A stretch of 59,252 bases of DNA from Chloroflexota bacterium (GTDB taxonomy: Bacteria > Chloroflexota > Limnocylindria > Limnocylindrales > CSP1-4): contig VBFG01000045.1 in assembly GCA_005882635.1 (NCBI GenBank), forward strand, positions 1 to 59,252, in the 5' to 3' direction. Both the position numbers and the translations under genes were made by a program. Positions 11,608 to 15,147 of the stretch are shown in pieces; the stretch's first letter is position 1, and each line of letters begins with the position of its first letter. Under the pieces are notes generated by a model that was not told the DNA's origin, ran no database searches, and saw only the letters and a list, made by a program, of their open reading frames with translations.

Positions 11608-12621
11608 TCAGGTCGGACGGGCGACGACGAGGAGCGTCGCACCCGACAGGAGGTCGATGACCGTCGGGACCGGCACGCCCGCCGAGGCGAACAGTTCGAC
11701 GTACCCGGCGTGGGTCAGCATCCGGGTGCCCTGGTAGAGCTCGTCGATCTGGATGCCCCAGAGCAGCTGGGCCTGGAGCGACTGGCTGTCGGCCGGCTTG
11801 TCGGGCAGGCACCACTCGAGGACGACGAGTCGCCCGCCGCGCGCCACCGCGGCCCACGAGGCCTTGAGCGACGCGACCGGGTCCGGCAGCTCGTGGAGCG
11901 CGTCCTGGATGTAGACCAGGTCGAACTGCTCTCGGAACGGCATATCCGGGATCGCCCGCGGCTCGATCCGGATCCGCTGGCCGAGGCCGGCATCACTCAC
12001 GTGCTTCATCGCGCGGGCGACCGAATCCGGCTCGTACTCGACGCCGACGAGCTCCGTCGCCGGGAAACGTCGGGCGATCGCGATCAGCCACTTGCCCCCG
12101 CCGCACGCCACGTCGAGGACCCGTGCCCCCCGGCTGAGCGCCGCCGTCAGCTCGGGCAGCTGGGCCAGCCCCTCCTGGAAGAAGACCGCGATGTCCTGAA
12201 CGGTGACCGACTCGATCGCCCGGTGGAAGCGTGGCGGCCGCTCGTCGATCGTCCGGCCGGTCCGGAAGAACTCGGCCAGGCCGGCGTAGTCGAGGCTCGA
12301 CACGACGGCGGCGACGAACTGGCCGCCGAGGTACTCGGGATGAGTGTCGTCGAGGAGGACAGAGACGACGTCCTCCTCGAGATGGGCTCGCCCGTCCTCG
12401 AACGCGACGAGATCGGCCGAGTGCGCGGCCCGCAGCCAGGCCCCGACCGGCTCCGGCCGGCAGCCTGCCGTCGCAGCGACATCATTCGGGGCGATCCCGC
12501 CGGACCCGGCGTCGCGGATCGTGGCGAAGAGGCCGAGCTCAAGGCCGAGGTAGATGACCCAGCTCTGGTAGAACCCGGCGACGGAGGCAGCCAGCTCCTC
12601 GAACCGATCCTCCCGTCCCAT
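11608..12621 (-). CDS. SAM-dependent methyltransferase (O-methyltransferase-like)
   Basis: 337 residues. The N-terminal winged-helix-like dimerisation region (FYQSWVIYLGLELGLFATIRDAGSGGIAPNDVAATAGCRPEPVGAWLRAAHSADLV) precedes a class I methyltransferase domain with motif I VLDVACGGGKWLIAIARRFP, the acid in VGVEYEPDSV, and FDLVYIQDALHELPDPVASL. This is the architecture of small-molecule O-methyltransferases. Its stop is six bases from the cupredoxin stop (convergent). GACAAT lies 6 bases before the ATG, so the transcript is probably leaderless. Substrate unknown. Confidence 0.88.
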   Translation of the reverse strand: MGREDRFEELAASVAGFYQSWVIYLGLELGLFATIRDAGSGGIAPNDVAATAGCRPEPVGAWLRAAHSADLVAFEDGRAHLEEDVVSVLLDDTHPEYLGGQFVAAVVSSLDYAGLAEFFRTGRTIDERPPRFHRAIESVTVQDIAVFFQEGLAQLPELTAALSRGARVLDVACGGGKWLIAIARRFPATELVGVEYEPDSVARAMKHVSDAGLGQRIRIEPRAIPDMPFREQFDLVYIQDALHELPDPVASLKASWAAVARGGRLVVLEWCLPDKPADSQSLQAQLLWGIQIDELYQGTRMLTHAGYVELFASAGVPVPTVIDLLSGATLLVVARPT

Positions 12622-12719
12622 GGACCGATTGTCGCATGGCGCCTCGCGCCGTCAGCGGCCTCGGCGGCGCGCGCCGCGTCGGGCGCAACCGATCGACCGG
12701 CCCCGGTGTTCAATCTCAC

Positions 12720-13304
12720 ATGATGGTCGAACTCGATCCCGCCACCGACGACGCCCGGCTCGCCGCCCGCCTGGCAAGCGACCTCGACAGCTCGTTCGAG
12801 TCGCTCGTCGTCGCCCACCAGGACCGCCTCTTCACGATCGCGTTCCGGACCGGCGGCGACCGCCACGACGCCGAGGAGCTCGTCCAGGACTGCTTCGTCC
12901 GCGCCTACCGAGCGCTCGCGACGTATCCCCCGACGCGGATCCGCGAGCTGCGGCTGCGGGGCTGGCTGACCACCATCCTGCTGAACGCCGGCCGCAACCG
13001 GGCGCGGGTCAAGCGTGTTCCGACGACCGAGCTGACCTTCGAGCCCGGCGCCGAGCCGGCCGTCGACCCGCTCACCCGGCGAGACGAGCGTGAGACGTGG
13101 GCCCGTCTGCTGGCCGGCCTGACGTCGGCCCAGCGGACCGCCGTCGTCCTGCGCCACGTGGACGGGATGTCGTACGCCGAGATCGCCGAGGCGACCGGCC
13201 GGCCCGAAGGCACCGTCAAGGCCCACGTCCATCGCGGCCTTGCCGCCCTACGCACAGCGCTCCTTGCCGCCGAGCGGCGCGAGCGCGAGGAGATCCCCGC
13301 ATGA
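12720..13304 (+). CDS. ECF-type RNA polymerase sigma factor
   Basis: 194 residues. Region 2 is FESLVVAHQDRLFTIAFRTGGDRHDAEELVQDCFVRAYRALATY (about 20-63), with the core-binding DAEELVQDxF motif. Region 4 is LTSAQRTAVVLRHVDGMSYAEIAEATGRPEGTVKAHVHRGLAALR, the -35-binding helix-turn-helix. TTCAAT lies 5 bases upstream of ATG 12720 (8 from the second ATG), with no Shine-Dalgarno. Its TGA overlaps the ATG of the Ogt-Ada gene (ATGA), exactly where an anti-sigma gene normally sits; no membrane anti-sigma factor is present. Confidence 0.93.
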   Translation: MMVELDPATDDARLAARLASDLDSSFESLVVAHQDRLFTIAFRTGGDRHDAEELVQDCFVRAYRALATYPPTRIRELRLRGWLTTILLNAGRNRARVKRVPTTELTFEPGAEPAVDPLTRRDERETWARLLAGLTSAQRTAVVLRHVDGMSYAEIAEATGRPEGTVKAHVHRGLAALRTALLAAERREREEIPA

Positions 13305-14098
13305 ACGACCAGATCGATCCCACGACCGAGTCGGCCCTCGCCGGTCTTCGCGAGCCCGCTCCCGTCGGGCTCGCCCACGCCACGCTCGTCGCCGTTGGCC
13401 TCGCCGACGACTACGCGGTCCTGCATTCGCCCGTCGGGCCGCTCCGCGTCGCCTGGAACGGCCGTGGCGTGTCGGCGGTCGAGGAGGCCCCGGATGACGG
13501 CGTGTTCGAGGCGCGCTTCTACGCCCGGACCGGACGCGTGGCCCGTCGCCGCGACGCGCTGCCGGCCGACCTCGCCCGCAAGATCGAGCGACGGCTCGCC
13601 GGCCGCCACAACCGCATCGATCTCGACCTTCGCGGATCGACCGCCTTCGAGCGGGCGGTGTGGATGAAGGCGCTCGAGATCCCCCGCGGCGAGGTCCGGC
13701 CCTATGGCTGGATCGCCCGGGAGATCGGCCGGCCGAAGGCCGTCCGGGCCGTGGGGACGGCGCTCGGTCAGAACCCGGTGCCGCTAATCGTGCCCTGCCA
13801 CCGAGTCGTGCGGAGCGATGGGATGATCGGCCAGTACTCGCTCGGCGGGCCGCGCAACAAGCGGACGATCCTGGCCGGCGAGGGCGCGGACCCGGACGAG
13901 CTCGAGACGCTAGCCCGGGCCGGGATCCGCTACTTCGGGTCGGACACGACCCACATCTACTGCCTGCCGACCTGCCACGACGCGAGGCGTGTGACGGAGC
14001 GGCACCTCGTCCGGTTCTCGTCTGCCGGGGCGGCGTCCGCCGCCGGGTACCGCCCCTGCAAGCACTGCCGCCCCACCGTGGCGACTGCCGTCGCCTAG
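13301..14098 (+). CDS. Ogt-type DNA-alkyl cysteine transferase fused to C-terminal Ada zinc domain
   Basis: 265 residues. Residues about 35-195 are an O6-alkylguanine transferase with the acceptor site VPLIVPCHRVV (Cys166), FERAVWMKALEIPRGEVRPYGWIAREIGRPKAVRAVG (DNA-binding helix-turn-helix) and the C-terminal LGG-x-x-x-K. Residues about 205-258 are the Ada N-terminal zinc domain: GSDTTHIYCLPTCHDAR...GYRPCKHCRP, with all four cysteines (221, 225, 253, 256) including the methylphosphotriester acceptor position. The order is reversed relative to enterobacterial Ada, and the AraC-type helix-turn-helix is absent. It overlaps the ECF sigma gene by 4 bases, so sensor and sigma factor are co-translated. 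Repair activity is secure from the motifs; a signalling role is inference. Confidence 0.92.
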   Translation: MNDQIDPTTESALAGLREPAPVGLAHATLVAVGLADDYAVLHSPVGPLRVAWNGRGVSAVEEAPDDGVFEARFYARTGRVARRRDALPADLARKIERRLAGRHNRIDLDLRGSTAFERAVWMKALEIPRGEVRPYGWIAREIGRPKAVRAVGTALGQNPVPLIVPCHRVVRSDGMIGQYSLGGPRNKRTILAGEGADPDELETLARAGIRYFGSDTTHIYCLPTCHDARRVTERHLVRFSSAGAASAAGYRPCKHCRPTVATAVA

Positions 14099-14160: not shown

Positions 14161-15147
14161 ATGCCAACTCGCCGCCGGGTCCGTCCGGCTTCCGCCGTGC
14201 TCGTGTGGACGGCGATCCTGATCCTGTACGTGGTCTGGGGCTCGACCTACCTCGGGATCCGGATCGCCGTTTCGACGATCCCGCCGTTCGTCCTCGCCGC
14301 GACCCGTTTCGCGATCGCGGGGATCGTGATGCTCGTCGCCGTGGCCGTCGTGCGGCGAGGCGCCATCCCTCGGCCGACTCTCCGGCAGTGGCGCGACAGC
14401 GCGATCATCGGCGCGCTGCTCATGGGTGGCGGGATGGGCGCCGTGGCATGGGGCGAGCAGACCGTTCCGTCGGGGATCGCCGGCCTGCTGATCGCGATGA
14501 TGCCGGTCTGGGTCGCCGTCCTCGGCAGAGTCTTCTTCGGCGATCGGCTGCCGCGGGTCGCCGTTGCCGGGATCGCCATCGGCATGCTCGGGGTGGCCAT
14601 CCTCGTCGGCCAGGGCGTCGCGATCGACCGGTCGCTCGATCCCGCCGGCGTCGGCGCCCTCATCATCTCGCCGATCGCCTGGTCGGCCGGCTCGCTCTAC
14701 TCGACGCACGGGGCCGATCTCCCGGACGACCCGTTCGTCACGACCGGCATGGAGTTCGTGTCGGGGGCGGCCGTCCTCGCGGCAATGTCGGCGGTCAGCG
14801 GTGAGCTGGCGTCCTTCGAGCCGGCGGCCGTGTCGGCGAACTCCGCGATCGCGTTCGCCTACCTGACGGTGGTCGGGAGCCTGATCGCCTTCACCGCCTT
14901 CGCCTGGGTTCTCCGCCAGGCACCGCTGCCGCTGATCGCGACGTATGCCTTCGTCAATCCGGTGATCGCCGTCTTCCTGGGCTGGCTCATCCTCAGCGAG
15001 CCCGTGGCACCCGTCCAGCTCCTCGCGGGCGCGGTCACCGTCGTCGGCGTCGCGCTGATCATCCTCGCCCGGAGCCGGATGCCCGCGGCGCGCCGGCCCG
15101 AGCCGAGAGCGGTCGACGCGCGCGGCAGCGAGGAGCTCGCTGCCTAG
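14161..15147 (+). CDS. EamA/DMT-family transporter
   Basis: 328 residues with ten predicted transmembrane helices in two EamA repeats: WTAILILYVVWGSTYLGIRIAV...PPFVLAATRFAIAGIVMLVAV and FAYLTVVGSLIAFTAFAWVLRQAPLPLIATYAFVNPVIAVFLGWLILSEPV. The WGSTY and P-x-x-A-x-x-R-F signatures are typical of RhtA/YdcZ-like drug/metabolite exporters of the inner membrane. It follows the Ogt-Ada gene by 62 bases, with TACACT at 14131-14136 as a likely own -10. Substrate unknown; amino acids or small metabolites are usual. Confidence 0.92.
   Translation: MPTRRRVRPASAVLVWTAILILYVVWGSTYLGIRIAVSTIPPFVLAATRFAIAGIVMLVAVAVVRRGAIPRPTLRQWRDSAIIGALLMGGGMGAVAWGEQTVPSGIAGLLIAMMPVWVAVLGRVFFGDRLPRVAVAGIAIGMLGVAILVGQGVAIDRSLDPAGVGALIISPIAWSAGSLYSTHGADLPDDPFVTTGMEFVSGAAVLAAMSAVSGELASFEPAAVSANSAIAFAYLTVVGSLIAFTAFAWVLRQAPLPLIATYAFVNPVIAVFLGWLILSEPVAPVQLLAGAVTVVGVALIILARSRMPAARRPEPRAVDARGSEELAA

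Follow-up and report, generated by a model that had tools for sequence, protein, structure and literature searches.

The locus described here raises the question of whether a DNA repair enzyme can serve as the anti-sigma factor of the ECF sigma factor beside which it is encoded. The window, a 59,252-nt stretch of a Chloroflexota bacterium genome (contig VBFG01000045.1), has a sigma gene followed by the gene for a protein that joins an O6-alkylguanine transferase (Ogt) to an Ada-type zinc domain (Ada_Zn). The first-pass annotation of this DNA placed the second protein in the anti-sigma slot and suggested an alkylation response wired through sigma. Coordinates of the features discussed are collected in the table.

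Features of the sigma/Ogt-Ada_Zn operon, in coordinates of the window
Feature	Coordinates	Strand	Description
ECF promoter of operon	12685..12710	+	-35 GCAAC 12685-12689, -10 GTGTT 12706-12710; predicted by conserved motif
ECF sigma factor gene	12720..13304	+	sigma2 and sigma4, no sigma3 (Pfam); 194 aa
Ogt-Ada_Zn gene	13301..14098	+	N-terminal helices, Ogt, Ada-type zinc domain; 265 aa; proposed anti-sigma/sensor
N-terminal segment	13301..13411	+	residues 1-37, helices 7-14 and 24-31; candidate sigma-binding element
EamA (DMT) transporter	14161..15147	+	PF00892 (1.3e-33); probable third operon gene and regulon member

Pfam finds Sigma70_r2 (1.2e-13) and Sigma70_r4_2 (1e-17) and no other sigma region in the first protein, the composition that defines an ECF sigma factor, and its PDB matches are SigE, SigW, SigH and RpoE. 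Region 2.2 contains DAEELVQD, an intact RNA polymerase-binding motif, so that judging from sequence this sigma should be active unless restrained. The gene starts at ATG 12720 (alternatively 12723), and its stop codon (13302-13304) overlaps the partner start at 13301 in an ATGA, as had been read at first pass. A -4 overlap was found in 56 of 79 examined loci of the sigma plus Ogt-Ada_Zn type, a count in which a few loci were seen twice via different collections. Natural sigma-Ogt fusions were not seen among the loci examined, the apparent cases being the 4-nt overlap only. It had also been claimed that no ordinary anti-sigma gene accompanies the pair, and this was borne out: the neighbours read, an O-methyltransferase gene before and an EamA transporter gene after the pair, are not anti-sigma genes, and the zf-HC2 anti-sigma-type domains of the window genome are on other contigs only. 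A divergent dimerisation-type methyltransferase gene (11608-12621, minus strand, in the window) is a conserved neighbour of the operon in some members of the family. Just upstream of the operon, a second, divergent ECF sigma gene occurs in five loci (L012, L015, L017, L018, L020) and in other soil Chloroflexota loci.

The partner protein matches PF01035 at residues 115-195 (6.6e-30) and PF02805 (Ada_Zn) at residues 211-258 (3.7e-12). It thus has the domain order that the first-pass annotation had described as reversed relative to E. coli Ada, with the zinc domain C-terminal and no match to HTH_AraC in Pfam. The PCHR cysteine is Cys166, within the Ogt fold. The zinc domain had been called a complete four-cysteine domain; the tetracysteine methyl-acceptor core is indeed complete, Cys221/225/253/256 aligning with Ada Cys38/42/69/72, but the PF02805 match covers profile positions 18-64 of 65 and the extreme N-terminus of the domain is missing. 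Cys166 and the four zinc cysteines are invariant in an alignment of 35 diverse homologues. The AlphaFold2 model (pLDDT 93, pTM 0.86) shows two short N-terminal helices followed by the Ogt domain and the zinc domain. Its Foldseek matches are M. tuberculosis OGT (4wx9), Ada-C (1sfe) and methylated N-Ada (1u8b), on the last of which the zinc domain superposes with rmsd 1.8. This is the only Ada_Zn domain of the 3.18 Mb genome, which therefore has no ordinary Ada.

The proposal had been accompanied by a suggested genome search for sigma genes beside Ogt-Ada_Zn proteins, and we found the two co-conserved across phyla. Our scan of GTDB genomes yielded 49 relatives with the Ogt-Ada_Zn architecture and an ECF sigma gene directly upstream in 49/49, counting some that end at contig ends or frame breaks and one (L043) whose sigma was seen only by profile search. 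Sigma was directly upstream in 52 of 57 assessable Ogt-Ada_Zn loci from a 400-genome sample of Chloroflexota and in all 28 zinc-bearing loci from a 397-genome sample of Actinomycetota. Cultured carriers include Actinokineospora fastidiosa JCM 3276 and Sphaerisporangium corydalis (L045, L047). The zinc-less relatives without sigma were plain Ogts or fragments (13/13). Homologues lying mostly away from sigma genes had been named beforehand as refuting; of the 57 Chloroflexota loci, 5 lie away from sigma. By record titles the phyla include Chloroflexota, Thermomicrobiota, Dormiibacterota, Actinomycetota, Acidobacteriota, Gemmatimonadota, Latescibacterota and Eremiobacterota; the pairing of sigma and repair enzyme recurs in at least seven bacterial phyla and is no local accident. 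In two distant Ogt/Ada_Zn-like genes (L167 2546-3768 and L168 2522-3759) an in-frame stop separates the parts, and the ECF sigma-like gene lies downstream of them, not upstream.

We examined the DNA upstream of sigma, and found the motif G[C/A]AAC-N15-NG[T/G]GTT in 129 of 205 loci across phyla (106 of 169 unique sequences), some of the 205 having been seen twice via different collections. A spacer of 15 accounts for 129 loci, and no other spacer length exceeds 6; upstream of sigma the motif is 229 times as frequent as in the remainder of these sequences, and 3 matches lie on the reverse strand. The ATG of the window gene follows the -10 element at a distance of 10 nt, so the transcript should be nearly leaderless. 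The window's own version, GCAAC-N16-GTGTT, has only 3 matches in its genome, one of them the operon promoter; a second perfect match lies inside the sigma gene on the same strand (12994-13019), possibly by chance. The regulon in this genome is very small, and the genome's second ogt has no clear motif; both points count against the reading favoured below.

Among relatives, the motif precedes stand-alone ogt genes in 6 genomes (G013, G026, G104, G544, G559, G858) and EamA genes in 9 (G000, G025, G026, G059, G060, G079, G081, G083, G424); Pfam matches confirm all six Ogt and three EamA assignments, the other six EamA calls resting on N-terminal sequences. We read about 60 sites outside the operon, for which well under one Ogt or EamA is expected by chance by our gene-frequency estimate. 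Many other matches fall at ribosomal or arbitrary coding positions and seem fortuitous; the reversed-pattern control gave 10 in 107 genomes and about 28 in 64. A cognate promoter before stand-alone ogt genes is what the alkylation-type response foreseen at first pass predicts, and the sites before ogt and EamA suggest a small, putative regulon of that type. EamA is directly downstream of Ogt-Ada in most loci of the family; we speculate that the exporter may remove an alkylating compound. In three loci from one genus (L244, L245, L246), TGCAAC-N16-GTGTT precedes a different ECF sigma-like gene, and in these genomes the Ogt-Ada protein has no full-length match at E < 1e-75.

The stand-alone ogt and EamA genes can be read as ordinary targets of this promoter, and the same might be said of Ogt-Ada: sigma would autoregulate the operon and answer to another regulator, with Ogt-Ada merely co-transcribed for DNA repair, and first position after sigma is by itself no proof of regulation. 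Against this stands the domain content of relatives. In Eremiobacterota the full-length partner, found in 93 of 148 sampled genomes, joins a zinc anti-sigma domain to Ogt (ZAS-Ogt), with an 80-residue N-terminal domain, then Ogt and no Ada zinc domain; the form also occurs in a record labelled Rhodospirillales. Sigma was upstream in 40 of 40 ZAS-Ogt loci read. The N-terminal domain has the H-x3-C-x2-C motif (H27/C31/C34 invariant) and ASDI similarity of class I anti-sigma factors, matching an NCBIfam anti-sigma model in 18/18 members (best 1.5e-6), RsrA in 12/18 and Pfam zf-HC2 in 6 (3e-4), with RsiW as top PDB match (1e-3) over most of its length, all anti-sigma matches of the relatives lying below the families' curated cut-offs. 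By domain content, therefore, the repair enzyme occupies the anti-sigma slot, as the first-pass annotation had it from the window pair. The AlphaFold2 model of ZAS-Ogt was poor (pLDDT 62), and so a fold match was not used for the ZAS domain. ZAS-Ogt proteins also have an extra invariant CxxC after the ZAS motif, in EGVAYCLSCLP (residues 43-52 of L222, and others), which may have a redox role or bind a second metal.

A bridging form in Gemmatimonadota and Latescibacterota combines an anti-sigma-like N-terminus, Ogt and the zinc domain; its anti-sigma match is weak (best 0.003), and direct hhalign comparison of the ZAS and bridging N-termini was not significant. In the alignment (A1), the window protein's N-terminal segment lines up with the end of the bridging anti-sigma match, where ASDI helix 4 is located; by this helix class I anti-sigma factors bind sigma2 over its RNAP-binding face (PMC7406223). 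From this we infer that the window protein, which has only two short helices before Ogt where an ASDI has four, may have kept only a helix-4-like element of the anti-sigma domain. This is the weakest step of the argument, since the short segment alone gives no significant profile match to anti-sigma factors and the link runs through the bridging alignment. Coevolution analysis of sigma against Ogt-Ada by mfDCA gave no enrichment for the N-terminal segment at Neff 107.

Natural losses bear on the same segment. Five Chloroflexota proteins have the zinc domain but no sigma gene beside them (L147, L148, L151, L152, L157), and all five also lack the N-terminal segment of about 35 residues. In our tree, which omits L147, three of them (L148, L151, L152) cluster (100/99) inside the sigma-linked clade, which points to at least one joint loss of segment and sigma; L157 is likely a second. 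The L147, L148, L151 and L152 genes sit behind apparent SDR-type and hydroxyacid-type dehydrogenase genes, a recurrent context. Four further loci scattered over the tree (L160, L162, L163, L164) have kept both segment and sigma and have no zinc domain, nor was a lost one visible behind the stop in the three forward frames. Taken together, these exceptions show that partnership with sigma is defined by Ogt together with the N-terminal segment and does not depend on the zinc domain. That sigma adjacency tracks a segment of the protein, both being lost together, speaks with the Eremiobacterota fusion, the conserved ATGA overlap and the lack of another anti-sigma gene beside the pair against Ogt-Ada being only a target, a reading that we consider unlikely.

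The zinc-less loci bear also on the choice of sensor, for which both the zinc domain and Cys166 had been put forward. Were the zinc domain the sensor, as in E. coli Ada, a methyl phosphotriester would methylate Cys221 and thereby free or activate sigma, leaving Ogt to repair only; the invariant zinc cysteines and the superposition on methylated N-Ada agree with this. It is nonetheless quite improbable, because the sigma-linked partners without the domain are spread over the tree, the whole ZAS-Ogt lineage is without it, and the position of Ada Arg71, which reads the A-box (PMC4437013), is variable in the Ogt-Ada_Zn homologues. Since the ZAS-Ogt form and the four zinc-less sigma-linked loci keep only the Ogt cysteine, the zinc domain is, on sequence grounds, probably accessory and not the essential sensor; its contribution is probably phosphotriester repair or another input. 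Of the two proposed sensors Cys166 is thus the likelier switch, as the segment and Ogt are what track the sigma gene. It is very unlikely that Ogt-Ada is a positive co-factor which recruits the sigma holoenzyme or activates it when methylated, since relatives have an inhibitor-type (anti-sigma) domain, although methylated Ada contacts RNA polymerase (PMC4437013) and the zinc domain could still touch DNA.

The reading that we favour, and hold to be somewhat probable, is a cytoplasmic ECF sigma/anti-sigma pair whose anti-sigma factor is a suicidal repair enzyme: Ogt-Ada would restrain sigma, and alkylation of Cys166 would relieve the restraint. Computation gives the architecture, the co-conservation with sigma, the domain content, the fusion of an anti-sigma domain to Ogt in relatives, the promoter and a putative regulon; from these we infer binding, release, the inducing signal and the roles of Cys166 and the zinc domain as follows. 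Ogt-Ada_Zn would hold sigma, probably via the N-terminal helical segment as a remnant of the anti-sigma domain that is intact in relatives. Alkyl transfer to the cysteine of an alkyltransferase is irreversible, and in known alkyltransferases it is destabilising. Transfer from O6-alkylguanine onto Cys166 could thus change the conformation of Ogt or destabilise it, letting sigma go. Free sigma would then transcribe GCAAC-N16-GTGTT promoters, giving more sigma, more Ogt-Ada and the EamA exporter from its own operon and, in relatives, the products of additional ogt and EamA genes. Autoregulation would produce a burst of Ogt-Ada, and fresh, unalkylated protein would rebind sigma and end the response. 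We see about an even chance that the suicide enzyme doubles as the ECF anti-sigma factor in such a way that each lesion repaired uses up one anti-sigma molecule; if so, repair itself would be the means by which the cell tallies damage, and the repair of alkylated DNA would be what turns on the repair genes. Because the system comprises just two genes, one defined promoter and cysteines that can be mutated singly, it can be tested directly.

Our literature search found no description of an Ogt anti-sigma factor or a sigma-based alkylation response, nor of the fusion, promoter and regulon, and the pair appears to be experimentally unstudied. The known element is the ECF122 neighbourhood: according to a 2022 review (PMC8999054), ECF122 is a group without cognate anti-sigma factor and with 6-O-methylguanine DNA methyltransferases in its conserved neighbourhood. 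Citing the ECF reclassification, the review records this neighbourhood as potentially regulatory and the mechanism as uncharacterised. The window pair likewise has an ECF sigma without ordinary anti-sigma factor and a methyltransferase neighbour, the latter conserved in loci of its type, and its sigma is likely an ECF122 member. The review's treatment of ECF122 says nothing of a Zn domain, a fusion to an anti-sigma domain, a promoter or a regulon (PMC8999054). What would be new is an ECF sigma/anti-sigma pair with a DNA repair enzyme as sensor, which if true would explain the regulation of an uncharacterised ECF class.

As with the class I anti-sigma factors RsiW, RsrA and ChrR, the partner gene directly follows sigma and the ZAS-Ogt relatives contain an ASDI domain; the window sensor differs in being a suicide DNA repair enzyme that keeps at most a helix-4-like segment. 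With E. coli Ada the window protein shares both modules (Ada_Zn and Ogt with PCHR), autoregulation and a regulon with alkylation repair, but its order is reversed, it has no AraC HTH, and a separate sigma does the transcription. Caulobacter Cada2 offers a precedent for switching transcription by methylation of the PCHR cysteine (PMC10957082); there too this cysteine is proposed to act as the methylation-dependent switch, with the tetracysteine domain dispensable, but Cada2 has its own DNA-binding domain, whereas the output here is an ECF sigma. The adaptive responses known from Ada (PMC4437013) and Cada2 (PMC10957082) fuse a DNA-binding activator to a methyl-accepting domain; the sigma-based arrangement, if true, would add a third way of wiring this response, in little-studied phyla.
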